Source: Sorangium aterium (lineage in GTDB: Bacteria; Myxococcota_A; Polyangia; Polyangiales; Polyangiaceae). From it: a DNA stretch of 64,000 nucleotides. The notes beneath the pieces are model-generated. The model was not told where the DNA came from. It did no database searches and was given only the letters and a program-made list of their open reading frames with translations. The DNA lies in NCBI RefSeq assembly GCF_028368935.1, contig NZ_JAQNDK010000004.1, positions 806,001-870,000 on the forward strand, read 5' to 3'. A program made the translations under genes and the position numbers. Below are positions 10,139-36,905 of this stretch, piece after piece; positions within the stretch are counted from its first letter, which is position 1, and each line of letters begins with the position of its first letter.

Positions 10139-12895
10139 ATGACGCGTGTCCGTTTCGTGCTTCGGGGTTTACCTTTCGCATCATCCATATGGCTCACCGC
10201 GCTCCTCGTCGGAGCAATCTTCCTGAGCGGCCTCGGATGCGCGCTCGACGCCGGGCCGCCGGGGGGTGACGAGCTGCGTTTTCGCTTCCCTGGCCAGGCG
10301 GCACAGGTGCTCCTCGGCAACGAGGAGTTCGTCGCGGTCGACAAAGGCTTCGCGCTCGCCTCGACGGGCGGTTCGACCCGCGAGATCGAGGCTCTGTTCG
10401 AGCGCCGCGGCGGGCTGCACGCCGCGCTGCCTGCGAGCGGAGAAGGGAAGGTCCGCTTCCATCTGCCCGGCGGCTTCGAGATCGGCGTGCGCGAGATCGG
10501 CGCCGAGGGCGAGGGCGCGGTCGTCGAGCGCGCCGTGGCGTATCGGCGTCAGGGCGGGACGTCGTTCTGGTCTGCGGTCGACGCTGGTTACGAGGAGTGG
10601 CTGCTCCTCGATGCCGGCGTGGCGAACGGCGGTGCGCCGGTGGCGGCGTGGGAGGTCGACGGCGCGACGCTGCGACAGCAGGGCGACGCGGTCGAGGTCG
10701 TCGACGACGCGGGCGCGCCGCGACTGCGGGTGACGGCGCCGGCGGCGTACGCGAGCGGCGGTCGGCCGGTCGAGGCGCGGCTCGAGGTGCGCGGGGCGAC
10801 GATCGCGCTGTGGGTCGACGCGGGCGGCGAGGAGGTGCTGGTCGACCCGGTTTGGGCGCCGACAGGATCCATGAGCGCAGCACGCGCCGAGTACACGGCG
10901 ACGCCGCTTGGGAATGGCCAGGTGCTCGTCGTGGGCGGGTACCCTACGACTTCTGCGGCGGGGAGCGCCGAGCTGTACGATACGGTATCCAATACCTGGT
11001 GGTCGGCCGGAACGTTGGCCACGGCCCGCTACAATCATACGGCGACGCTGCTCGGCAACGGCAAGGTGCTGGTCGTGGGCGGGAAAGGCAGCGGCTCGGT
11101 GGTCCATACGAGCGCCGAGCTGTACGATCCGGCATCCAATACCTGGACGGCGACGGGCGCGCTGGCCGCGGGCCGCGTCGCCCACACCGCGACGCTGCTC
11201 GGGAACGGCAAGGTGCTGGTCGCCGGGGGGCATAACGGCTCCAGTGCGGCGTTGGCGACCGCCGAGCTGTACGAGCCGTCGACCGGCGTCTGGTCGCCCG
11301 CTTCAACGATGGGGGCGAGCCGCTCCTGGCACACCGCGACGCTGCTCGGGAACGGCAAGGTGCTGGTCGCCGGGGGGCATAACGGCTCCGGTGCGGCGTT
11401 GGCGACCGCCGAGCTGTACGAGCCGTCGACCGGCGCATGGTCGCCGACGGCCTCGATGACCGGGCCCCGCCAAAACGCCACCGCGACGCGGCTCGTGAGC
11501 GGCAAGGTGCTCGTCGCGGGTGGCTACGACATTTCTGCCGACTACCTGCAGAGCGTCGAGATCTACGACCCGTCCTCGTCGCCACCCGTCTGGACGACGG
11601 CGACGCCGATGAGCAGCAAGCGCGGCAACCATACCGCGACGCTGCTCCCGAACGGCAAGGTGCTCCTGACGGGCGGGTGGAGCGCCCCCATGGTCGTCAG
11701 TGCAAGCGCCGAGGTCTACGATCCGGGAACCAACTTCTGGGCAGCGGCCGGGTCGATGAGCACCGTCCGCACCAGTCATACTGCGACGCTGCTGGGCAAC
11801 GGCAAGGTGCTACTCGCGGGTGGGCTCAACTTTGGCATTCCATCCAGCACGTACTACTCGAGCGCCGAACTGTACGATCCGGCGGCCACGACGTGGGGGG
11901 CGGTCACGTCGATGTCTCACGCCCGCATTGCGCCGACCGCGACGCTGCTCAACGATGGCAGGGTGCTCGTGACGGGCGGTGACTCGTTGGGAACGAGGAC
12001 CGAGCTGTACAATCCGTCGACCGACACCTGGGCGGCGGGGCCATTGATGGGTGTGGGACGCCAGTATCATACGGCGACGCTGCTCGGCAACGGCAAGGTG
12101 CTGGTGGTGGGCATTCGGACCGTCGCGTCCCCCGCGAACGCCCAGCTGTTCGATCCCGCGACCGACACATGGTCGTCCGTAGGCTCGTCGACAAGCCCAG
12201 ACCTCAACCGCATGGGGCACACCGCGACGCTGCTCCAGAACGGCAAGGTGGTGGTGTACGGAGGGGTTAATCCCTCCGCCGCCCCCGACGAGTACCTGTA
12301 TTCCTCGGCGCTGTTCAATCCGGCGAACAACACCTGGTCGCCCGCCGACGACATGCCGATTGCCTATGCCTATTCTGCCACGACGCTGCTCCCGAACGGC
12401 AAGGTGCTCCTCGCGGGAGGTAGAAGCGAGTACGTAGAGCGGCACTCCGTTACCGGGCTCTACGAGCCGTGGAACGATTTCTGGTCGGGCGTAGTAGATC
12501 ACATGGCGTGGGGCCGCGCCTATCATACGTTGACGTTGCTGAACACCGGCGAGGTGCTGGCGGTGGGAGGAGGCCCCGCGAACGCGACCGTCGAGGTCTA
12601 TAACCCGACGTCCGATCTCTGGTCCTCCGGTACTGCGCAGTTCTCCCGTCGCTCGCATACCGCGACGCTGCTCAACAACGGCAAGGTGCTGCTCGCCGGG
12701 GGCATCGACAGCACAGGGAACGTGACCCGGAACGTCTACATCTACGATCCCGCGACAGGTGCCATGGCCCTGACCGGGCAGATGAACGATGCGCGGTACG
12801 CTCATGCAGCGGTCCGGCTCGGGAACGGAAAGGTGCTGGTCGTAGGCGGCAGCGACGGCTCCGCCCTGTCGACCGCCGAGATCTACACCCCCTGA
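10139..12895 (+). CDS. Large kelch-repeat beta-propeller lipoprotein
   Basis: 918 residues; ATG follows AAGGGAG. The signal segment ends at the lipobox LSGLGC. Residues ~35-235 form an N-terminal domain without a recognised name (GDELRFRFPGQAAQ ... GGEEVLVDPVW). The rest is about 14 consecutive kelch motifs of the form HTATLLGNGKVLVVGG with AELYDPATNTW, roughly 47 residues apart, enough for two seven-bladed propellers. Sorangium-type genomes carry many such proteins, thought to act in surface binding; no catalytic residues are visible. The strong DNA similarity between blades 3 and 4 (about 11205-11430) shows recent internal duplication. Confidence 0.88.
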   Translation: MTRVRFVLRGLPFASSIWLTALLVGAIFLSGLGCALDAGPPGGDELRFRFPGQAAQVLLGNEEFVAVDKGFALASTGGSTREIEALFERRGGLHAALPASGEGKVRFHLPGGFEIGVREIGAEGEGAVVERAVAYRRQGGTSFWSAVDAGYEEWLLLDAGVANGGAPVAAWEVDGATLRQQGDAVEVVDDAGAPRLRVTAPAAYASGGRPVEARLEVRGATIALWVDAGGEEVLVDPVWAPTGSMSAARAEYTATPLGNGQVLVVGGYPTTSAAGSAELYDTVSNTWWSAGTLATARYNHTATLLGNGKVLVVGGKGSGSVVHTSAELYDPASNTWTATGALAAGRVAHTATLLGNGKVLVAGGHNGSSAALATAELYEPSTGVWSPASTMGASRSWHTATLLGNGKVLVAGGHNGSGAALATAELYEPSTGAWSPTASMTGPRQNATATRLVSGKVLVAGGYDISADYLQSVEIYDPSSSPPVWTTATPMSSKRGNHTATLLPNGKVLLTGGWSAPMVVSASAEVYDPGTNFWAAAGSMSTVRTSHTATLLGNGKVLLAGGLNFGIPSSTYYSSAELYDPAATTWGAVTSMSHARIAPTATLLNDGRVLVTGGDSLGTRTELYNPSTDTWAAGPLMGVGRQYHTATLLGNGKVLVVGIRTVASPANAQLFDPATDTWSSVGSSTSPDLNRMGHTATLLQNGKVVVYGGVNPSAAPDEYLYSSALFNPANNTWSPADDMPIAYAYSATTLLPNGKVLLAGGRSEYVERHSVTGLYEPWNDFWSGVVDHMAWGRAYHTLTLLNTGEVLAVGGGPANATVEVYNPTSDLWSSGTAQFSRRSHTATLLNNGKVLLAGGIDSTGNVTRNVYIYDPATGAMALTGQMNDARYAHAAVRLGNGKVLVVGGSDGSALSTAEIYTP

Positions 12896-12958
12896 CGTCG
12901 TTGGGGCGCCCCGTCCACGGGCCAGCCCGTCCGCCGACGACGCGGCCGGCGCGGCGCA

Positions 12959-13338
12959 GGCGCTAGCAGCGCGCGCCGGCCGTCCGCTTCCGCAAACCAG
13001 CCAAGATCCCGCGTGCGGCAGCTGAACAACGCCGCCGCGCGGCGCTTCCGCCCGCGAGGCGCCGCGCGGGTTGTGGGCGGCCGCCGCCTTGCACTCGACG
13101 ATGATTCGACGATGACTCGATCGCCTACGAACAAGTCGAGGCGAAGGTCCGACGCAAGACGCTTTCCCTTGTACACGAGCGGTACGGCCTTCTGGCGCAC
13201 CACCGTGAGCCCTCGCGACTTGAGCTCGAAGGCAAGCACCTCTTCGTAGACTGTCTCGAGCAGCCCTGGAGCTCCAAGGGTACGATGCACCTCGATCGCT
13301 GCGTCGACGACGACCTTGGCTATTTCATTCTCGGTCAT
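12959..13338 (-). pseudogene. Broken GxxExxY-family PD-(D/E)XK nuclease-like gene
   Basis: Reads from ATG 13338 (GGAGAGA just upstream) as MTENEIAKVVVDAAIEVHRT and so on. It includes the signature GLLETVY (G-x-x-E-x-x-Y) and FVGDRVIVE, the start of the nuclease core. An 11-bp tandem duplication at 13095-13116 (tcgacgatgat/tcgacgatgac) then shifts the frame exactly before the ECK that should follow IVE. Past that point neither frame gives a normal family C-terminus. The gene runs towards the 3' end of the kelch gene. GxxExxY proteins are a widespread family of uncertain function. The upstream DNA carries a half-copy of the palindromic repeat seen elsewhere in the window. Confidence 0.75.
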
Positions 13339-13345
13339 TCTCTCC

Positions 13346-13380
13346 GCCTTTGGGCGCCTTGGCGCCTTGGCGTTAAAATC
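13346..13380 (-). repeat. Half-copy of the CGCCAAGG palindromic repeat before the GxxExxY gene
   Basis: On the minus strand it reads GATTTTAACGCCAAGG and then CGCCAAGGCGCC, ending 8 bases before the ATG of the broken nuclease gene. It matches one arm of the four full palindromes at 15.5, 21.3, 28.6 and 51.3 kb, including the TTTTAAC(C)GCC edge. Confidence 0.7.
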
Positions 13381-13429
13381 CGAGATTCTCGACGACGTCA
13401 GCTGCAGGCACGATGAGGCACCCGCGTGG

Positions 13430-13713
13430 GCTGGACGGTTCCTGGACGATTGGACACGTCTGGCCATGCGTTCCAGGATTCTGCCGTTCCAGAAGTTCGC
13501 ACGAACGCTCCGTGGTCATGGAGAGCTCCTCCTCAACTGGTTCCGGGCACGGAGCGCCTTCGCCCATGGCGCCACCGAGGGATTCAACAATAAAACGAGA
13601 ATTACGACCAGAAAAGCGTATGGGTTTCGGACCTACGAACACGCGGAGAACGCCCTCTACCGTGCGCTCGGGAACCTGCCGGCGCCCGAATGGCTCACCC
13701 ACAAATTATCTGA
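13430..13713 (+). pseudogene. C-terminal remnant of an ISL3-family transposase
   Basis: About 95 codons remain: GRFLDDWTRLAMRSRILPFQK through LLLNWFRARSAFAHGATEGFN, NKTRITTRKAYGFRTYEHAE and ALYRALGNLPAPEWLTHK. This is the characteristic C-terminal part of ISL3-type DDE transposases, including the catalytic-Glu region (ATEGFNNK). The N-terminal domains and inverted repeats are missing. The reading frame runs on without a stop into the reductase fragment, in a different frame from that gene. Confidence 0.8.
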
Positions 13714-28760: not shown

Positions 28761-28947
28761 CTCTCCAGCGTCGGATCGGAGTGGCAACGTCCTGGACGCC
28801 GCCTGCAGGGTGTTTGATGCACATGGCATCATGCATGTCAACGGGGAATGCGTGGAAGCGCGCTCCTGCCGCTCTGCATGACGAGGCTGGCAGCATCGTC
28901 TACGTTTGGTGCAGCGATCTACTTACCTACTCTCGGAGGAGACAGCG

Positions 28948-29502
28948 ATGAAGGCACGAGCTTGGCTGGTAACGCTCGCGATGTTCACGGCTGCGGGGTG
29001 CGGGAGTGACGGGGGAGAGACAGGGAGCGCGACGTGCACGGGTGCAGGATGTGCGTGCACCGGGTTCGACTGTGAGTGTGTGGCTGGCGCTGATTGTAAG
29101 ACATATTGCGGCTCGACGTCGTGCTCGCTCGACTGCACGGCGAACACCAAGTGTAACGGGAGCAGCGAAGGCGCGCTCACGCTCCAGTGTTTCGACACGA
29201 GCGAGTGCAAGGGGAACGGCGGCGACGGCAGCGTGATCTCGTGCACGGGGCAGTCGGACTGCGACCTGAAGGCAGACGCTGGATCCACGGCGGTCTGTGA
29301 AGACCAGGCCAAGTGCAAGTTCAACCTGGGCCCCGGCGCCACGATCCGGTGTGGGGACGAGAGTCACTGCGAGCTCAAGTGCGACGCGGATTGCGTCGCG
29401 ACGTGCGCCGAGACGGCGGAGTGCAAGGTGAGCTGCGGCGCTGACAGCACGCCCGGTGTGACGTGTCCAGACGGACGGCTGGTATGCGGCAAGGCGTGCT
29501 GA
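28948..29502 (+). CDS. Cysteine-rich lipoprotein of unknown function
   Basis: 184 residues from ATG 28948, with CGGAGGAGAC upstream; an earlier in-frame ATG at 28906 lacks such a site. Lipobox FTAAGC. The mature part has about 26 further cysteines at nearly regular intervals of 5-8 residues (CTGAGCACTGFDCECVAGAD and so on), interspersed with acidic and Gly residues. This suggests a disulphide-rich, possibly beta-solenoid fold outside the cytoplasm. No named family is recognised. Similar exported Cys-rich repeats are frequent in myxobacteria. Confidence 0.75.
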   Translation: MKARAWLVTLAMFTAAGCGSDGGETGSATCTGAGCACTGFDCECVAGADCKTYCGSTSCSLDCTANTKCNGSSEGALTLQCFDTSECKGNGGDGSVISCTGQSDCDLKADAGSTAVCEDQAKCKFNLGPGATIRCGDESHCELKCDADCVATCAETAECKVSCGADSTPGVTCPDGRLVCGKAC

Positions 29503-29593
29503 GGAGCATGCGCGCCGCTGGGCCGACGTCCTGGTGAGCGAGAGCGCGGGAGCCGCTTTCTCAGGGGGTGGACTGCCCTGCTCCTGCGAGAGC

Positions 29594-30169
29594 TCAGCGG
29601 GTGAAGCGGCGGATGGCGTGCCGGATCTGCTCGGGCGCCATGGGATCCGTCGATAGGGCGCTGTGCAGCACGAGGCCCTCGATCAGCGCGTCGAGCTCCC
29701 GCGCGGTCACCGGGTCGAAGTGGATCTCCAGCGCGCGCCGGCTCCGCAGCATCCAGGCCTGGGTGACGGCGCGCAGCGCGGGCCTCCGGGCGGCGGCGAC
29801 GTAGAGCTCGACGCTGAGCACCAGGTCGCGCTCCGAGCCGAGGAGGGCCGTGGTGAGGTGCTCGACGAGGTGCTCGACCGCGGCCTCGCGGTCGCACGCG
29901 GCGCGCATCTGCTCCTCGAAGCGGGTGGCCACGTCGTCCGCGTGCCGGGTGAACGCCGCGGCGAGCAGCTCGTCGATCGAGGCGAAGTGGTACGTGGTCG
30001 AGCCGAGCGGCACGTCGGCGGCCCGGGCGATCGAGCGGTGTGACGCGCCGGCGACGCCCTGCTCGGCGATCACGTCGAGCGCGGTCGCCACGAGCCGCTC
30101 CCGGCGCCCTGGGTCGTGGCGACGGGCCCGCCGCGCGGGGGCGGCGCGCCTCGCCCTGGCAGCGCTCAT
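29594..30169 (-). CDS. TetR/AcrR-family repressor
   Basis: 191 residues. The N-terminal HTH is complete: RRERLVATALDVIAEQGVAG then SHRSIARAADVPLGSTTYHF. The C-terminal ligand domain contains ALLGSERDLVLSVELYVAAA. It starts 10 bases after the stop of the acetyltransferase (GGAGG just upstream), so the two genes form one operon read from the promoter at ~30800. The two GTGTACAC boxes there are the probable operator, which implies autorepression. The inducer is unknown. Confidence 0.88.
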   Translation of the reverse strand: MSAARARRAAPARRARRHDPGRRERLVATALDVIAEQGVAGASHRSIARAADVPLGSTTYHFASIDELLAAAFTRHADDVATRFEEQMRAACDREAAVEHLVEHLTTALLGSERDLVLSVELYVAAARRPALRAVTQAWMLRSRRALEIHFDPVTARELDALIEGLVLHSALSTDPMAPEQIRHAIRRFTR

Positions 30170-30179
30170 CGCGCCTCCG

Positions 30180-30794
30180 TCACCCTCGCGCCTCGCCCGG
30201 CGCCGGCGCGGCGCCCGCGGCGTCGAGGGCGCGGACCACGCGGGCGGGGTTCCCGACCGCGACCACGTTGGCCGGCAGGTCGCGCGTCACGACGGAGCCC
30301 GCGCCCACCACGGTGTTGTCGCCGATCGTCACGCCCGGAAGCACGATGGCCCCGCCACCCAGCCACACGTTGTTCCCGATCGTGATGGGCTTCGCGGCCT
30401 CCCATTTCTGCCGCCGAGGCTCGGGCTCCACCGGGTGGGTCGGCGTGAGCAGCTGCACGTTCGGGCCGATCTGCACGTCGTCGCCGATCGTGATGGGCGC
30501 GACGTCGAGCGCGACCAGCCCGAAGTTCGCGAAGCAGCGCGCCCCGATGGTGATGCGCGAACCGTAGTCCACGTGGAACGGCGGGCGGATCTCGGTGCCC
30601 TCGCCGATCGCGCCGAGCAGCTGCTCCAGCAAGCGGCGGCGCAGCGGGCGCTGCCGTACCGACGTCGCGTTGTAGGCCGCCATGAGATCCAGCGCGGCCG
30701 CGCTCTGCTCGGCGATCTCGGGATCGTCGGCGATGTAGAGGTCGCCAGCGAGCATCCGCTCGCGCATGGACCGGGGATCGTGAGGGGTCGACAT
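30180..30794 (-). CDS. Sugar O-acetyltransferase, LacA/Maa/NodL type
   Basis: 204 residues from ATG 30794. The upstream frame continues to 30833 but would run through the operator and probable -10. Typical of the family: the N-terminal MRERMLAGDLYIADDPEI (Maa domain), then left-handed beta-helix hexapeptides (ITIGARCFANFGL, ITIGDDVQIGPNV, ITIGNNVWLGGGAIVLPGVT). The catalytic His is in LLTPTHPVEPEPR. It acetylates a sugar hydroxyl in the cytoplasm with acetyl-CoA. First gene of an operon with its own TetR repressor. Confidence 0.9.
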   Translation of the reverse strand: MSTPHDPRSMRERMLAGDLYIADDPEIAEQSAAALDLMAAYNATSVRQRPLRRRLLEQLLGAIGEGTEIRPPFHVDYGSRITIGARCFANFGLVALDVAPITIGDDVQIGPNVQLLTPTHPVEPEPRRQKWEAAKPITIGNNVWLGGGAIVLPGVTIGDNTVVGAGSVVTRDLPANVVAVGNPARVVRALDAAGAAPAPGEARG

Positions 30795-30798
30795 ATGG

Positions 30799-30831
30799 AC
30801 GAGTGTACACTCTATAGGAACGAGTGTACAC
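30799..30831 (-). promoter_or_regulatory. Double operator and promoter of the acetyltransferase-tetR operon
   Basis: Two copies of ACGAGTGTACAC lie at 30799-30810 and 30820-30831, exactly 21 bp apart (two helical turns). The first extends to a perfect 12-bp palindrome GAGTGTACACTC (30801-30812); the second has the perfect 8-bp core GTGTACAC. Between them on the minus strand is TATAGA, a good -10. Transcription would start close to the ATG at 30794, giving a very short leader. Binding by the TetR protein encoded downstream is inferred. Confidence 0.75.
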
Positions 30832-30944
30832 ATCGACGGGCGGGACGAGTTCGTCGGGGGCCATGCGCCGCCCGCGCCCCTGCGCCTCGAACTTCGCGGG
30901 CAGATCGGGCAAGGCTCCTCCTCGGCGAGTGGCGCGCGCGCCGA

Positions 30945-32612
30945 TCACCGCGTTCCTGCGCGCTGCTTTCGAGACGCCGCGGGCCAGATGCCCTGCTTGC
31001 CCGGCGACAGGATGCCGTTCGGGTCGAGCGCATCCTTCAGGGTCTCATTCAAGCGCCGGAGCGCGTGCTCGTTGAAGCTGAACTGATCGCCGATCAGGTC
31101 CATGAAGGCCAGGTGCGCCCGGTACCCGCCGATCCCCTGTCTCCCCATTTCCCTGATCAAGGTGTCGAGCAGCGCGGCGGCGCTGCTCGTCTGCTTCGCG
31201 TCGTGCTTCTCGTAGAGGATCGTGAAGACATGGTTCAGGTGGCGCACGCCGGCGGTGAAGCCGGCCAGGTAGTCGATCCCGTGCTCGCGGGCGCGCGCCT
31301 TCACGTGGTTGTAAACCCTCGCCGCCTCGCGCCCGCTGGACGCCACGATCGGAGAGAAGTCGAGGTGCCCACAGTCGTCGCCGCGGAACTTCAGCGCGTT
31401 CAAGGAGAAGAACCCCGGGACGCCCGCCAGCCGGCCGGCCGGTCCTTCGACCTCCCAGGCGTGGAGCCCATCCGAGCCCGAGGCGAGATGCTCATGCCCC
31501 GTGATCTCGGCGCCGGGGATCCTCGAGAATTCTCGCTGGACGATCCTGAACCGAGCGTCCCGCAGCTCCTTGTCGCCGTAGAGGCCGAAGCGCAGGATCC
31601 ACCACCATCCGATGCCCAGATCCCGGCGGACCTCGTCGAGCACCTCATCGGGCATGGCGCCGGGGCCGTCGTACCAGCGCGAGCGCGGATAGCGGTGCGC
31701 CACGTCGCGCAGGACATTGCCCAGCTGGGCGTTGCTCTGGATGATCTCCCGGCGGCGCAGCGACGCGAGCACATCGATGGCCGCCTCGAGGTCGGACTCC
31801 CTCTGAAAGTGCACGGTGCATGACATCATTCCGTCAGGCTGAGGCATCAACCAGAGCCCCAGCTTGGTCACTATCCCCAGGTTCGACTGCAGGAACAGCC
31901 CGTCCAGCGACGGGCCATACCCGCCCTTGTACATCTGCCAGGTGTTGGCGCCGGGCAACGCTCCCATGCCGGTGCGGACGACGTCGCCGTTCGCCAGGAC
32001 GACCTCCATCCCGCAGATCTGGGCGGCGTGATCGCCGTACGGGGTGTAGCCGATGCCCCGCTCCAGGGCATTGCCGAGGACGCTGCCCCAACCGAGCGAT
32101 GGCGCGGACATCCAGAGCTTCAGCCGATGCTCGCGGAGATGTTCATAGAGGTCCACGAATCTCACGCCGGGCTCGACGAGGGCGTAGGCATGCTCCTCGT
32201 CGACCTCCAGGATCCGGTTCATCCGCTGCATGTCGAGCACGATGGCCCCGCTCACCCGCGGCGCCGCGCCCCCGTACCCGAGGTTCCGTCCGGTGGATAC
32301 GGTCCAGATCGGAATGCCGTGCTGATTGGCTATGGCCAGGACGGCCTGTACCTCCTCCACCGATCTCGGAAGCACCGCCCCGGAGCACCGGAAGTCCTCG
32401 GAGCCGCCGAATGCATAGGGGTCCTCGTAGGCCGAGAGATCCGAGCCCGGGCCGAGCACCGCGTCGTCGCCGAGCGCCGCGGCGAGGCGCCCGTAGGCCG
32501 CGTCGATCCGCCCGGATGAACCGGATCGACGATATGCCTTGTCCGCCGCGTCCTGCCGGGGAAGGGGAGCCGCCCCCGGTGAGGAATGATGGCGTCGGGC
32601 AGCGCTCCTCAT
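30945..32612 (-). CDS. FAD-linked oxidase of the vanillyl-alcohol oxidase / 4-cresol dehydrogenase type
   Basis: 555 residues from ATG 32612, which overlaps the stop of the upstream partner gene (ATGA). The FAD-binding PCMH domain shows IWTVSTGRNLGYGGAAPRVS and GIGYTPYGDHAAQICGMEVV, then GPSLDGLFLQSNLGIVTKLG. The C-terminal DPNGILSPGKQGIWP is close to the VAO family end. Family members oxidise para-alkyl phenols. In this setting, coupled to an MNIO and Cys-rich peptides with one Tyr, a role in modifying the peptide, possibly its Tyr, is plausible but unproven. The covalent-flavin His could not be assigned with certainty. Confidence 0.85.
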   Translation of the reverse strand: MRSAARRHHSSPGAAPLPRQDAADKAYRRSGSSGRIDAAYGRLAAALGDDAVLGPGSDLSAYEDPYAFGGSEDFRCSGAVLPRSVEEVQAVLAIANQHGIPIWTVSTGRNLGYGGAAPRVSGAIVLDMQRMNRILEVDEEHAYALVEPGVRFVDLYEHLREHRLKLWMSAPSLGWGSVLGNALERGIGYTPYGDHAAQICGMEVVLANGDVVRTGMGALPGANTWQMYKGGYGPSLDGLFLQSNLGIVTKLGLWLMPQPDGMMSCTVHFQRESDLEAAIDVLASLRRREIIQSNAQLGNVLRDVAHRYPRSRWYDGPGAMPDEVLDEVRRDLGIGWWWILRFGLYGDKELRDARFRIVQREFSRIPGAEITGHEHLASGSDGLHAWEVEGPAGRLAGVPGFFSLNALKFRGDDCGHLDFSPIVASSGREAARVYNHVKARAREHGIDYLAGFTAGVRHLNHVFTILYEKHDAKQTSSAAALLDTLIREMGRQGIGGYRAHLAFMDLIGDQFSFNEHALRRLNETLKDALDPNGILSPGKQGIWPAASRKQRAGTR

Positions 32613-33607
32613 GCCCCGCTCCGCGGCCCCTCGCCGTCGCCTCTGCCGCGCGCGCCCGGCCCCACGCTCTCCTCGATCGTCACGAAGTTCAGCGCGTAGA
32701 GCTTCTGCAGCGTTCGACAGCAATCTCGCTCGACGGCGCGCCGCGCGGCGCTATCGGTCTGCGGCTCGATGATCTCCCCGAGGATCTCCCGGGTAGGCCT
32801 CCCGTCGACAGCGCGGGTAAGGAACGACCTTATCATCCCCCCCACGCGGGCCTTCTGCACCCGGTCGGTCACCGCGATCCTCCCGAACAGGAGCAGCGTC
32901 GGCGCGGGCTCCGGCTCGGGCGGCGCCTTGCCGTCGACGAGCGCCTGGATGAACGGCAACACGTCGCACGAGAACTCGCGCAGCGCGACGTGCCGGCCCG
33001 CGCGCACGGCGCCGTCGAGCAGCTCCTCCTCGGTGACGCTCGGCCTCGACGCGTTCCGCGACTTGAAATCGTTCGAGCTCTCGACGCACGCGGCGTCGGA
33101 CCACACAATGAACTCGGCGAGCTCGCAGCGCATCACGTCCATGAGGTAGGGGAGTCCGAGCTCCCCTTGGCCGACACGCCGCTCGATGAGCTCGGCGAAC
33201 CAGAGGGCGTCTCGAAACGCGCGGATCAGGTGCTCGGACCTGATGGGGCGGTAGGTGGCGATGAAGCTCCGCCCCACGCTCGACAGCGCCTTGTTGCGCC
33301 GGAGCAGCGCGAACGTGGCGGGGAAGTACGTCTCGACGAGGTAGAAGCGCTTGAGGCCCAGCGAGCCCGAGATCCAGCGCAGCCGGTCCCTGTCGAGCGA
33401 CTGGAGCGCGGACATCTGCCCGGCGCTCAGCGCGTTCTCCTCGGCGAAGCGCGCCGGATCATCGTAGAAGCGCTCGAACGCCTGAGGATCGGTGAGCAGC
33501 CGCGCGAACGCGGTCTGAAACGCCGATGTATCCGTGCCCGTCGCCCGCATCTCCGCTGCGCGCTCCATCGTCCGCCCCTTTGCTATGTGATTCATGACAC
33601 GTTCCAT
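32609..33607 (-). CDS. Putative MNIO partner protein of the peptide-modification cluster
   Basis: 332 residues, no signal peptide or membrane helix. The start at ATG 33607 has GGAGGGAGGA directly upstream; two further in-frame ATGs lie within 60 bases. The N-terminal ~100 residues are helical (FQTAFARLLTDPQAFERFYD, DPARFAEENALSAGQMSALQ) and are reminiscent of the helical N-termini of MNIO partner proteins (MbnC, TglI, BufC/DUF2063). Overall similarity is too weak to name a family. It lies 30 bases after the MNIO gene and overlaps the oxidase gene. It probably binds the precursor leader and presents it to the MNIO. Confidence 0.6.
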   Translation of the reverse strand: MERVMNHIAKGRTMERAAEMRATGTDTSAFQTAFARLLTDPQAFERFYDDPARFAEENALSAGQMSALQSLDRDRLRWISGSLGLKRFYLVETYFPATFALLRRNKALSSVGRSFIATYRPIRSEHLIRAFRDALWFAELIERRVGQGELGLPYLMDVMRCELAEFIVWSDAACVESSNDFKSRNASRPSVTEEELLDGAVRAGRHVALREFSCDVLPFIQALVDGKAPPEPEPAPTLLLFGRIAVTDRVQKARVGGMIRSFLTRAVDGRPTREILGEIIEPQTDSAARRAVERDCCRTLQKLYALNFVTIEESVGPGARGRGDGEGPRSGA

Positions 33608-33637
33608 GGTCCTCCCTCCAGCTGCGCGAGGAACGCC

Positions 33638-34474
33638 TCACGCCCAGATAGCCCTCGCGTGCTCGACCTCCGCCAGCATCTCGCCGAAGTCGTCCGGCGG
33701 ATTCGCGTCGCGCTCGATGAGGACGCCGCGCACGGGCGCTCTCCGGCAGAGGTAGTCGAGCAGGTCCCAGACCTCGGGATGGCTGTCGACAGGGTGGTCG
33801 TGCGTGTCGACCCACATCCCGTCCTCGTAAGTCCCGCCGGCCAGGTGGACCTGCACGACGCGCTCGAGCGGGATCTGGTCGATGAACTCATACGGATCAT
33901 AGCGGAGATTCCGGGCGTTGACGTAGAGGTTCGTGAGATCGAGCAAGATGCCGCAGTCGGCGTCGTTCACGACCTTGCTGAGGAACTCCGCCTCTGTCAT
34001 GGCGCCTCCGGGGATCCCCATGTAATAGGCGATGTTCTCGAGGAGCAGCGGGACCCCCAGCATGTCCTGGAACTGCCGGGCTTTCGCTGCGCAGCGCGAC
34101 GCGGTACGCTCGGTGAACGCGATCGGGGTGAGCTGGCCCAGCTCGATCCGGGAGACCTGCGTGAAGCAGAGGTGATCGCTGTACCAGGGGGCGCGGACCG
34201 CTCTCGCGAGCTGCGCGATATCACGGCAGTAATCCATGTCGAGCGGCGCGTCGGTGCCGATGGACAGCTCGAGGCCATGAGGTGCTATGGGCAGACGCTC
34301 GCTCAGCTCGACGGCGCGCGCGACCCTCCCCTCTGTTCGGTAGATGTAATGATCCGCGCAGATCTCGATCCAGTCGATCCGGTCGCGGTGTTGCTCGATC
34401 CCGCGGACGAACCAGGGGCGGTAGGCAAGCCCAACGCCGATGCGCGGCAGATCGAATCTCGACTTCGTAGACAT
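33638..34474 (-). CDS. MNIO-family (DUF692) multinuclear iron oxidase for peptide modification
   Basis: 278 residues, the usual MNIO length, with GAGGAGC before ATG 34474. DUF692 landmarks of the TIM barrel are all present: IGVGLAYRP, DWIEICADHYI, APHGLELSIG, WYSDHLCFT, LLLENIAYY, LLDLTNLYVNARN, VVQVHLAGG and DTHDHPVD. The His/Glu/Asp/Asn metal ligands expected from MbnB and TglH therefore look intact. Known MNIOs use iron and oxygen to rework Cys (or C-terminal) residues of ribosomal peptides in methanobactin, 3-thiaglutamate and bufferin pathways. The likely substrates are the two 39-residue peptides encoded just upstream. Confidence 0.92.
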   Translation of the reverse strand: MSTKSRFDLPRIGVGLAYRPWFVRGIEQHRDRIDWIEICADHYIYRTEGRVARAVELSERLPIAPHGLELSIGTDAPLDMDYCRDIAQLARAVRAPWYSDHLCFTQVSRIELGQLTPIAFTERTASRCAAKARQFQDMLGVPLLLENIAYYMGIPGGAMTEAEFLSKVVNDADCGILLDLTNLYVNARNLRYDPYEFIDQIPLERVVQVHLAGGTYEDGMWVDTHDHPVDSHPEVWDLLDYLCRRAPVRGVLIERDANPPDDFGEMLAEVEHARAIWA

Positions 34475-34504
34475 GAAAAGCTCCTCGCGCGCGGGTAAGG
34501 TGAA

Positions 34505-34539
34505 GCGCCGAGGCAGCGCGGCGAGCGCTGCCTCGGCGC
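34505..34539 (-). terminator. 15-bp perfect hairpin between precursor peptides and MNIO gene
   Basis: Arms 34505-34519 and 34525-34539 are exact reverse complements (GCGCCGAGGCAGCGC on the plus strand) with a 5-base loop. There is no U-tract afterwards, so it is more likely a partial terminator or an RNA-stabilising stem than a full stop. Such elements often raise precursor over enzyme expression in RiPP operons. Confidence 0.65.
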
Positions 34540-34573
34540 CGGCGGCGAGGGGCGCGCCCCCCCGCCGCTCATG

Positions 34574-34693
34574 TTACTCGTCGTTCACGTAGCCGCAGCA
34601 GTGGCAATGCAGCGCGACCTCTCTCACCTCGAGCTCGGTCGGGTCCTCGGGGGTGATCATCTCGAAATCGAATCCACTCTTGTCAGTATTCAT
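34574..34693 (-). CDS. RiPP precursor peptide, copy 1 (39 residues, HCHCCGYVNDE C-terminus)
   Basis: Reads MNTDKSGFDFEMITPEDPTE and continues to the end ALHCHCCGYVNDE, then TAA. AAGGAGA lies seven bases before the ATG. The N-terminal two thirds are acidic and leader-like. The C-terminus packs three Cys and two His into five positions (HCHCC), followed by GYVNDE. It is the gene nearest the MNIO, 99 bases upstream. It differs from copy 2 by one residue (Thr19 versus Ala). The expected products would have the Cys cluster oxidatively modified; metal binding is possible. Confidence 0.85.
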   Translation of the reverse strand: MNTDKSGFDFEMITPEDPTELEVREVALHCHCCGYVNDE

Positions 34694-34857
34694 CCTGTTT
34701 CTCCTTCATCGGAGGCAGCTTGGCCGCCTCGGTTGGTGACGCGTCGGCAGGCGTCTCATGCGGCGTGGTGTCCGCCGCGCCGCGCCCGCCGACCCGCCGT
34801 CTGCGCAAAGATCCAATCAAGAGCCGCGCCGCTCACGCGGTCGGCATACCAGGGTTG

Positions 34858-34977
34858 TCACTCGTCGTTCACGTAGCCGCAGCAATGGCAATGCAGCGCG
34901 ACTTCCCGTACCTCGAGCTCGGCCGGGTCCTCAGGGGTGATCATCTCGAAATCGAATCCACTCTTGTCGGTATTCAT
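34858..34977 (-). CDS. RiPP precursor peptide, copy 2 (39 residues, HCHCCGYVNDE C-terminus)
   Basis: Same length and almost the same sequence as copy 1, with Ala at position 19, the stop changed to TGA and many silent changes (for example TGC-CAT-TGC codons retained and GAG codons varied upstream). AAGGAGA precedes the ATG at 34977. Silent changes without amino-acid changes indicate selection on the peptide, which supports a real gene. It would be the first gene of the operon. Confidence 0.85.
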   Translation of the reverse strand: MNTDKSGFDFEMITPEDPAELEVREVALHCHCCGYVNDE

Positions 34978-35141
34978 CCCATTTCTCCTTCATCCGAGGC
35001 AGATTGGCCTCCTCGGTCATCGACGGATCGGCAGGCGTCTCATGCGGCGTGATGTCCGCCGCGTCGCGCCCACCGTTCCGTCCTCTGCGCACAGGCCTAA
35101 TCAAGGGCTGTGCCGCTCACGCGATCCGCATACCAGGCGTG

Positions 35142-35609
35142 CGCGCGGAGCCGCGAAGACGCCGCCCTGCTCGGCGGCTCACGCACGGCGGGGCGGCGGT
35201 GAAATGGCCGGGAAACCGCTGGATCGGCCGGGTTTCACTGGCTGAGCGCGCACGATCGACGCTCGGGCGGTGGTGCGGAGGTGACGAATGTCGCTGTGGC
35301 CCGCTCGCCCGTTGGGGCCCTGTGAGAAGCGCAACGACTTGCTCCGGAAGGCAAAACCCCGCTGGTGGAAGGTAACGTGTTGCTCTGTAAGGCCGGCTGA
35401 GCGTCGTCGTCGGGGTGATCACGCGGCCGCGCGCGCGCATGCGTCAGCCGGACCCGGCCGCGCGAGCGCCGAGCGCGCCCGCTGCGAGCGCGCGCAGGGG
35501 TCGCGCCCAGCGGAGCCCGGCGGCATGGGCGCGGCCCGCCCGGCCGCGCTTGCGGCCGGAGCAGCTCCACGTCGCCCCGCGGAGGTCGGGGCCCGCGTGG
35601 GAGCCGAAA
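35142..35609. other. Gap between the precursor cluster and the DUF58 operon
   Basis: 468 bases without a credible gene on either strand; open frames here have no start signal and end in compositionally biased runs. It contains the 3' end of the DUF58 gene's transcript region on one side and possibly upstream control of the peptide operon on the other. No clear promoter was read. Confidence 0.4.
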
Positions 35610-36905
35610 TCAAAGCAGATGGCGCGCTTTGATCTCGAGATACCGGTTGATGAGCTGCCCGGTGAGCTGGCCGGGCGCGACGTCGAGCACGAGCGCGCCG
35701 TGGTTCTTGAGGTCGCGCACGAGCCGGTCGCGGAAGCTCGAGAGCTCGGCGGCGGCGCCGCGCGTGTAGGGGTCGACGTCGCCGCCCTCGACAAGCGCGT
35801 CGATCTCCACGTCCCGCAGCAGCACCATGAGCGGCAGGTGGCGCGGCATCACCCCGCGCATCAGGCGGAGCAGCTCGCCCGCGGCGACGTCGTCGACGAC
35901 CTGCGTGAAGAGCACGATCAGGCTCCGCTTGCGCACGCGCAGGCCCACGTGCTGGAACGCCGCGCCGTAGTTGGTCTCGACGAGCTCGGGGTAGAGGTCA
36001 TACCCCGCGGAGAGCACGTGCTTGGCCGCGCCCGCGCCGCTCACCGGGGGCGCGTAGCTCTTGATGCCGTCGGCGAAGGCGAGCAGGCCCACGCGGTCGC
36101 CGCCGCGCGCGGCGACGTGAGAGAGCATCAAGCTGGCGTTGAGCGCGTGATCGAAGAGCGAGAGCCCCTGCGTCTGCGCGGTCATCAGGCGGCCCGCGTC
36201 GAGGAGGAAGAGGAGGTTCTGGTTGCTCTCGAGCTGGTACTCGCGGCTGATGATCTTCTTCTGCCGCGCGGTCGCCTTCCAGTCGATGGAGCGGAACTCG
36301 TCGCCGCGGCGGTACTCGCGCAGGCGCTCGAACTCGCTCTCGCCGCCGCGCTTGCGCGAGGCGCGCAGCGCCGCCGGATCGCGATCCTGGCGCGCCATGA
36401 GCTCGAAGGCGCGCACCGCTTGCACGTCGGGGTACACCTTGACCGGCGTCTCCGCCGGCACCGTGACCTGCCGGATCCAGAGGCCGAACGGGGAGAGGTA
36501 GCGCACGTGGTGATCGCCGATCGCGTGCGCGCCGCGGCGGGTGGGGCGCACGTGGTAGCGGGCGGCCGCGCGCTCCCTGGGCGGGAGCTCGAGCTTCACG
36601 GGCAGGTCGTCGCTCTCGGCGTGATCGAAGAGGTCGTCGGCGACCTCGATCGAGAGCTTGCGGCGGGAGAGCGAGCGGATCTCGAGCGTGATCAGGTTGG
36701 GGCGCCCGATGGAGAGCACCGCGGGCGCGTGGCGCTTCACCGTGACCAGCGGCCTCCGCGCGAGGAGCGCGTCGATCGCGGCCCAGAGCGCGATGCCCGC
36801 GTCCGCGGCGAGCATGGGCAGGAGCAGCGTGCGATCGACGAGCGTCGCCACCGCGAGCCCGAGGGGCACGATCGCGAGCAGGACGAGGGCGCGCGAGGGG
36901 ATCAT
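35610..36905 (-). CDS. DUF58 domain protein
   Basis: 431 residues. Two N-terminal hydrophobic helices (ALVLLAIVPLGLAVATLV) precede a beta-rich stretch. The DUF58 hallmark FERLREYRRGDEFRSIDWKA lies near 240, followed by a von Willebrand A-like fold (NLLFLLDAGRLM). It is the last gene of the operon, five bases after MoxR. MoxR-DUF58-transglutaminase/vWA operons are thought to assemble or chaperone large complexes at the membrane; the exact role is unknown. Confidence 0.9.
   Translation of the reverse strand: MIPSRALVLLAIVPLGLAVATLVDRTLLLPMLAADAGIALWAAIDALLARRPLVTVKRHAPAVLSIGRPNLITLEIRSLSRRKLSIEVADDLFDHAESDDLPVKLELPPRERAAARYHVRPTRRGAHAIGDHHVRYLSPFGLWIRQVTVPAETPVKVYPDVQAVRAFELMARQDRDPAALRASRKRGGESEFERLREYRRGDEFRSIDWKATARQKKIISREYQLESNQNLLFLLDAGRLMTAQTQGLSLFDHALNASLMLSHVAARGGDRVGLLAFADGIKSYAPPVSGAGAAKHVLSAGYDLYPELVETNYGAAFQHVGLRVRKRSLIVLFTQVVDDVAAGELLRLMRGVMPRHLPLMVLLRDVEIDALVEGGDVDPYTRGAAAELSSFRDRLVRDLKNHGALVLDVAPGQLTGQLINRYLEIKARHLL

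Follow-up and report, generated by a model that had tools for sequence, protein, structure and literature searches.

A likely peptide-modification cassette in Sorangium aterium with Cys/His precursors, an MNIO and a TglI-like partner, and a flavoenzyme gene of doubtful membership

Which of five neighboring genes in a Sorangium aterium genome belong to a single peptide-modification pathway? The genes lie in a window of 64,000 nucleotides (assembly GCF_028368935.1, contig NZ_JAQNDK010000004.1, positions 806,001-870,000 of the forward strand; coordinates below are those of the window), in a genome of 13.47 Mb and 7 contigs with seven matches to PF05114 (formerly DUF692), the family of the multinuclear non-heme iron-dependent oxidative enzymes (MNIOs). 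They are transcribed from the minus strand in the order precursor copy A, precursor copy B, MNIO, partner protein and vanillyl alcohol oxidase (VAO)-type flavoprotein. A preliminary description of this DNA had read them as one pathway for a ribosomally synthesized and post-translationally modified peptide (RiPP). The precursor, MNIO and partner are conserved together in three genomes and stand as a RiPP-type cassette; the membership of the flavoenzyme is doubtful. We conclude that the cassette very probably represents a genuine RiPP pathway, in which a new precursor family is joined to an MNIO outside the captophorin/bufferin models and a type-2 partner.

The putative substrates are encoded by two open reading frames (ORFs) of 39 residues, copy A at 34858..34977 and copy B at 34574..34693, each preceded by a Shine-Dalgarno sequence AAGGAGA (34984..34990 and 34700..34706, respectively). 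Both ORFs, with their C-terminal HCHCCGYVNDE, were found where the preliminary description had placed them, and a single substitution, A19T in copy B, distinguishes the peptides, which share the leader MNTDKSGFDFEMITPEDPxELEVREVAL. The two copies form a tandem duplication of a 285-bp unit of 5' flank and precursor ORF (34574..35142) in which 246 of 285 aligned sites are identical; the 39 differences comprise 30 at 165 upstream sites and 9 at 120 sites of the ORF including its stop codon (Fisher p 0.014). Among codons, we counted 7 synonymous changes over 22.3 sites and 1 nonsynonymous change over 94.7 sites (Fisher test on rounded counts, p 2.4e-5), in agreement with the earlier remark that the copies differ mainly at silent sites. 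The leader of copy B and its ortholog in Sorangium So0157-2 differ at 9.5 of 17.8 synonymous and 5.5 of 66.2 nonsynonymous sites, and comparison with So0008-312, over the first 13 codons only (4 of 6.3 synonymous and 7 of 32.7 nonsynonymous sites), involves too few sites to say much. Because the changes, both between the copies and between the copy B leader and So0157-2, are mostly synonymous, we take the 39-residue ORFs to be translated and selected peptides. By reading, the precursor N-terminus has no hydrophobic stretch and no recognizable signal peptide; the 39 residues hold one Cys cluster and no EGKCG-type repeat, Cys-Lys motif or DUF2282 domain. The sole Pfam match of the precursor was NarE, at 12.9 bits against a cut-off of 27, and a search for the precursor among plasmids gave no match.

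The cassette has close counterparts in the genus. An MNIO search of 6 Sorangium genomes (E 1e-40 or better) gave matches in all 6, with orthologs of at least 77% identity in the window genome, So0157-2 (88%) and So0008-312 (77%). In the latter two, a partner gene (79% and 59% identity, respectively) and a precursor gene adjoin the orthologous MNIO; the precursors lie upstream of it, so that relatives of the 39-residue ORFs, whose absence near other MNIO genes had been named as evidence against the pathway, exist in two further genomes. The family's precursors span 36-40 residues, and the four aligned sequences have in common M, N, GFD, E, I, LE and E of the leader and the C-x-C-C of the core. 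The core sequence is HCHCC-GYVNDE in the window, CCRCCYGRVSDE in So0157-2 and HCCHCCHH in So0008-312, giving a common pattern (H/C)C(H/R)CC from HCHCC, CCRCC and CCHCC; the remainder of the core varies, with a DE end in the window and So0157-2 and an HH end in So0008-312. A core Tyr is present in both window copies and in So0157-2 and is missing in So0008-312. As both orthologous loci keep all three genes together with alignable leaders and C-x-C-C, we conclude that MNIO, partner and precursor share their inheritance and that the core has drifted except at three fixed positions, all Cys.

Two stem-loops separate precursor B from the MNIO gene. The first, an attenuator- or terminator-like hairpin at 34504..34540 on the minus strand, has a 14-pair consensus stem across the three Sorangium genomes; in two of the pairs both bases have changed (C-G/G-C and A-U/G-C). 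The second, at 34542..34568 on the same strand, is well paired in the window and So0157-2 and partly broken in So0008-312. Folding z-scores were -3.24 for the window, -3.61 for So0157-2, -3.13 for the So0008-312 spacer and -4.05 for the So0008-312 hairpin alone, and 0, 1, 1 and 0 of 200 shuffles, respectively, folded as well. As a U run follows the hairpin in So0008-312 and is poor in the window, terminator function is best supported in So0008-312; with three sequences, the case for the hairpin is suggestive rather than conclusive. A consensus terminator scan returned one site, at 34824-34840 (shuffle mean 1.5), distinct from the conserved hairpin. In RiPP clusters, the precursor and enzyme genes are commonly separated by a partial terminator, which yields an excess of substrate.

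The MNIO gene (33638..34474, minus strand) encodes 278 residues that match PF05114 with 277.1 bits (cut-off 25; E 1.7e-82), and its relatives of solved structure include 3bww, TglH and MbnB. Residues H66, D100, H101, E146, N147, D179, H210, D223, H225, E254 and D256 are invariant in 5 of 5 aligned MNIOs and are candidate ligand or catalytic residues, with putative roles assigned in part from PMC13097082. That source describes captophorin MNIOs that convert Cys to 5-thiooxazoles with a catalytic Asp, and we take D256, part of an ERD motif, to be the equivalent of this Asp. The protein matched five NCBIfam MNIO models, each below its cut-off: BufB (226.6 of 310 bits) and HvfB (215.8 of 360) scored best, followed by ApyH (137.2 of 400), ChrH (64.3 of 600) and MbnB (48.5 of 325). 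In a tree of 45 MNIOs from the loci studied here, several long branches of which were flagged, the window MNIO groups with its two other Sorangium orthologs (100/100) and then weakly with that of Plesiocystis (81/53). Of a set of 46 MNIO loci, two (L058 and L073), in which no complete ORF matched, were left out of this tree, and for four others (L038, L039, L040 and L065) the genome set supplied the same proteins instead. A well-supported set of 35 sequences (100/99) contains bufferin-like loci, in several of which the upstream ORFs resemble, by eye, bufferin-type precursors with signal peptides.

The partner gene (32609..33607, minus strand, 332 residues) had been described as encoding an unrecognized helical protein, and it indeed had no Pfam match at E 1, DUF2063 included; a name can nevertheless be given to it from its predicted fold. 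A model built from six sequences (mean pLDDT 72.4, pTM 0.64) had as its first Foldseek match 8hi7_A (E 1.5e-4), the chain of the TglHI entries that we identify as TglI from its length, the other chain being the MNIO. VIA-align superimposed the model on the TglI chains of 8hi7 and 8hci with Z 13.6 over 241-243 residues, a value barely above the level of about 13 under which Z may mean little for helical models, yet well over the next different fold (Z 7.8), and the match extends over most of the partner's length. The N-terminal part resembles NHLP/Os1348 and the C-terminal part a RiPP recognition element (RRE): the ends of the protein match Os1348 (Z 7.8) and the RRE protein TbiB1 (Z 3.2), and its sequence matches the Os1348/NHLP domain model NF038399 at E 7.5e-5, with 22.7 bits against a cut-off of 40. 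On this structural model, the partner is TglI-like and of PME-type 2 in the sense used in PMC12452194, which associates such partners with precursors that have no signal peptide.

In the class, a single-sequence search found relatives of the partner in 4 of 289 genomes, and a profile in 19 of 289 genomes, at 20 places. A search of a collection of genome contigs with the partner sequence confirmed 0 of 23 stretches, a limit of the method, as the collection includes the So0157-2 ortholog, which was found there through the MNIO. Of the 20 profile places, 11 were read with more flank; three others are the window, So0157-2 and Plesiocystis (C147), and one is G167 (L018). The 11 further places have no (H/C)C(H/R)CC precursor, and one has no MNIO match. 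A crude filter (ORFs of 20-260 residues with at least 3 Cys in the last 45, lying between -60 and 600 bases ahead of the MNIO gene) did pass candidates there, which we judged by eye to be chance or, in one locus (L114), a different, repeat-type precursor.

How does this set of genes relate to known MNIO systems? It resembles TglHI of Pseudomonas syringae, which makes 3-thiaglutamate (pearlin), in combining an MNIO with a partner of the same predicted fold. The substrate of that pathway is a precursor that ends in Cys, whereas the window precursor does not end in Cys and has a Cys/His cluster, and the two MNIOs are only distantly related. The largest MNIO groups described in PMC13097082 and PMC12452194 are captophorins and bufferins, with DUF2063 partners and mostly exported precursors. 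The window cassette shares with this group (BufB, HvfB and FonB MNIOs) its best NCBIfam scores and Cys-rich substrates, and differs from it in sub-threshold MNIO scores, a partner with no DUF2063 (PME1) match, precursors of another kind and an MNIO outside the set of 35. Methanobactin, aminopyruvatide and chryseobasin are set apart by the sub-threshold equivalog scores for MbnB, ApyH and ChrH. The adjamnio-IV CxxCC family has, according to PMC12452194, precursors of 119-146 residues, in comparison to 36-40 here. Clusters that we found in Plesiocystis pacifica SIR-1 and Sorangium So ce26 have MNIOs 50% and 46% identical, partners 26% and 25% identical and a Cys-rich precursor upstream, but these precursors have 5 and 7 Cys and the enzymes are followed by a glycosyltransferase and an asparagine-synthetase-type gene (family-scanned in So ce26). 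As far as we searched, the MNIO RiPP is a known kind of pathway, and the precursor family and lineage are new; an open-licence library gave no match for DUF692 with Sorangium, MNIO with Myxococcota, or MNIO or RiPP with vanillyl alcohol oxidase.

We consider it likely that the Cys/His precursors, stem-loops, MNIO and TglI-like partner form a compact RiPP biosynthetic cassette that carries out Cys oxidation, the chemistry being predicted from homology. By terminating a fraction of the transcripts downstream of the precursors, the stem-loop would keep substrate in excess over enzyme. The RRE-like C-terminal domain of the partner would bind the leader and present the core to the MNIO, which, with iron and O2, would oxidize at least one core Cys. 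Most likely, this would be a four-electron oxidation, a loss of 4 Da per Cys, to a thiooxazole-type or related heterocycle; the suggestion of thiooxazole comes from the nearest scored families, BufB and HvfB, and from PMC13097082, and thiooxazole itself is a possible product, though less likely than not. The resulting His/Cys peptide may bind a soft metal such as copper, and its export and leader removal would fall to genes elsewhere in the genome or to strain-specific ones, such as an ABC transporter of So0008-312.

Several observations weigh against this reading. The window hairpin has no good U run and was not listed by the consensus terminator scan, and two inner pairs of its stem fail in So0008-312. 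Counting the window genome, only 3 of 6 Sorangium genomes have the MNIO ortholog of at least 77% identity. The tree places the MNIO outside the well-supported set of 35 that contains the bufferin-like loci. Thiooxazole chemistry is an extrapolation, since the cores lack the EGKCG and Cys-Lys contexts, DUF2063 does not match the partner and the MNIO falls outside that set. Outcomes are, according to PMC12257519, unpredictable for MNIOs that are not highly homologous to studied ones.

An MNIO of this kind might instead modify a residue other than Cys close to the C-terminus, in the Asn-Asp or Ser-Asp that precedes the last Glu, and leave the Cys for metal binding only. Asp- and Asn-directed MNIO reactions are described in PMC13174530 and PMC12257519, and the window and So0157-2 peptides end in VNDE and VSDE, respectively. 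However, the So0008-312 precursor ends in HH, without such an end, and Cys-x-Cys-Cys alone among the core features is common to the three genomes, so that we regard this alternative as unlikely and favor Cys as the site of MNIO modification.

Does the flavoenzyme act on the same peptide? Its gene (30945..32612, minus strand) most likely starts at ATG 32612, giving 555 residues, rather than at TTG 32723, and, as the preliminary description had noted, this start overlaps the partner stop codon (ATGA). The protein matches FAD_binding_4 and FAD-oxidase_C in Pfam and is homologous to VAO and eugenol oxidases over nearly its full length (8s7n at E 3.4e-148, residues 72-586; relatives also include 5fxd and 1vao), from which it differs in that its gene stands behind a RiPP cassette. 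It contains the motifs TGRNLGYGG, YTPYGDH, GHLDFSP and YRAH, among which we place the residues that bind the phenol and link the flavin in VAO. The protein is thus, by homology, a genuine VAO/eugenol-oxidase relative with predicted phenol oxidase activity.

The same strand, the ATGA overlap, the full-length VAO-type sequence and the Tyr in both window cores speak for a dedicated second oxidase that takes the peptide after the MNIO and acts, for example, on the benzylic carbon of its core Tyr. The partner stop of So0008-312 likewise overlaps by ATGA with the next gene, that of the ABC transporter, and this protein may well work on the peptide. However, we found no flavoenzyme relative beside the MNIO cassettes of So0157-2 and So0008-312, and the core Tyr, proposed earlier as the substrate, is kept in So0157-2 with no adjacent flavoenzyme and is absent from So0008-312. 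The 46 MNIO loci, which include those two cassettes (at most 7 kb of flank, less where a contig ends; ORFs of at least 90 residues, E 1e-5 or better), yielded one flavoprotein match, a glcD-like gene in Eremiobacterota (L067); we rejected this as a parallel, as it reads as glcD with glcE/glcF-like genes, and the MNIO there has a different upstream gene. The 11 further partner places of the class have no flavoprotein relative either. Characterized VAO relatives are known to use small free phenols, and the window gene is followed by maltose-acetyltransferase-like and TetR genes, with which it may form a separate cassette.

The surroundings of the cassette bear on the same question. Its place in So0157-2 is syntenic, with rhomboid, endonuclease/phosphatase-family and GNAT genes on one side and PPK2 and trehalose-phosphatase genes on the other. 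The distance from the GNAT gene to the partner is ~7.3 kb in the window, as opposed to ~1.1 kb with an NmrA-like gene in So0157-2. The VAO, acetyltransferase-like and TetR genes lie within this ~7.3 kb, and none of them matches the So0157-2 locus at the DNA level. Behind the partner, So0157-2 has an unrelated convergent gene and So0008-312 the ABC transporter, with a junction like that of partner and VAO in the window; as each of the three genomes has a different gene there, the slot is variable. Thus, a role as a defined second step is doubtful: apart from the overlap, nothing ties the flavoenzyme to the peptide, and it is probably a variable neighbor rather than a fixed part of the pathway, most likely oxidizing a small phenol independently of the peptide. 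We consider its action as a dedicated peptide oxidase improbable. Slightly less probable still is the fuller scenario in which, in this strain, the MNIO converts the core Cys and the VAO-type enzyme then oxidizes the benzylic position of the core Tyr, with other accessory genes in the slot in related strains. If true, this would be a flavin-plus-multi-iron RiPP pathway, no description of which was found in the open-licence library searched.

It is very improbable that the 39-residue ORFs, short as they are, are unexpressed or encode unmodified small metal-binding peptides while the MNIO acts on another substrate, given their purifying selection, two strong ribosome-binding sites and conservation beside the MNIO in three genomes, and given that, in So0157-2 and So0008-312, the 700 bases upstream of the MNIO contain no other same-strand candidate with at least 3 Cys among its last 45 residues.

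The cassette would represent a compact family in myxobacteria whose partner is TglI-like, whose precursors span 36-40 residues and whose minimal core, (H/C)C(H/R)CC, differs from strain to strain. Its three natural core variants on one leader and enzyme set are a ready test of which Cys is modified, of the chemistry and of the binding of copper or other metals. It also carries a warning that a translationally overlapping neighbor should not be read as a pathway enzyme before its orthologs are checked.

Within the window, the Pfam scan of 39 chosen ORFs revealed no exporter, a sigma-70-type promoter scan of the region gave no site, and Rfam, searched over positions 29000-36000, gave no match at gathering thresholds. 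On the plus strand, a Cys-rich ORF of 198 residues at 28906-29502 had no Pfam match at 1e-5. Block synteny between the window (17189-63637) and So0157-2 (L016) is interrupted by unmatched stretches at 19.8-22.3, 25.3-32.6, 35.5-43.8 and 44.7-62.8 kb, which would reflect strain-specific gene gain or loss around the conserved RiPP cassette.

Elsewhere, the ABC transporter gene of So0008-312 (L034:9875-13546) is followed by an ORF of 477 residues (12113-13546) that has no Pfam match and a repetitive Cys-rich stretch near its C-terminus. The Plesiocystis (L017:7562-14459) and So ce26 (L035:7528-13183) clusters look like pathways for an undescribed glycosylated or cyclised MNIO peptide and may be more unusual than the window cluster; the Plesiocystis glycosyltransferase has a C-terminal PqqD match. 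The window genome has six more PF05114 genes on contigs C1-C5 (L001-L003 and L005-L007), none with a same-strand ORF of 25-260 residues and at least 4 Cys in the last 60 within 1.5 kb upstream, and four ORFs downstream of these genes passed the Cys-rich filter.

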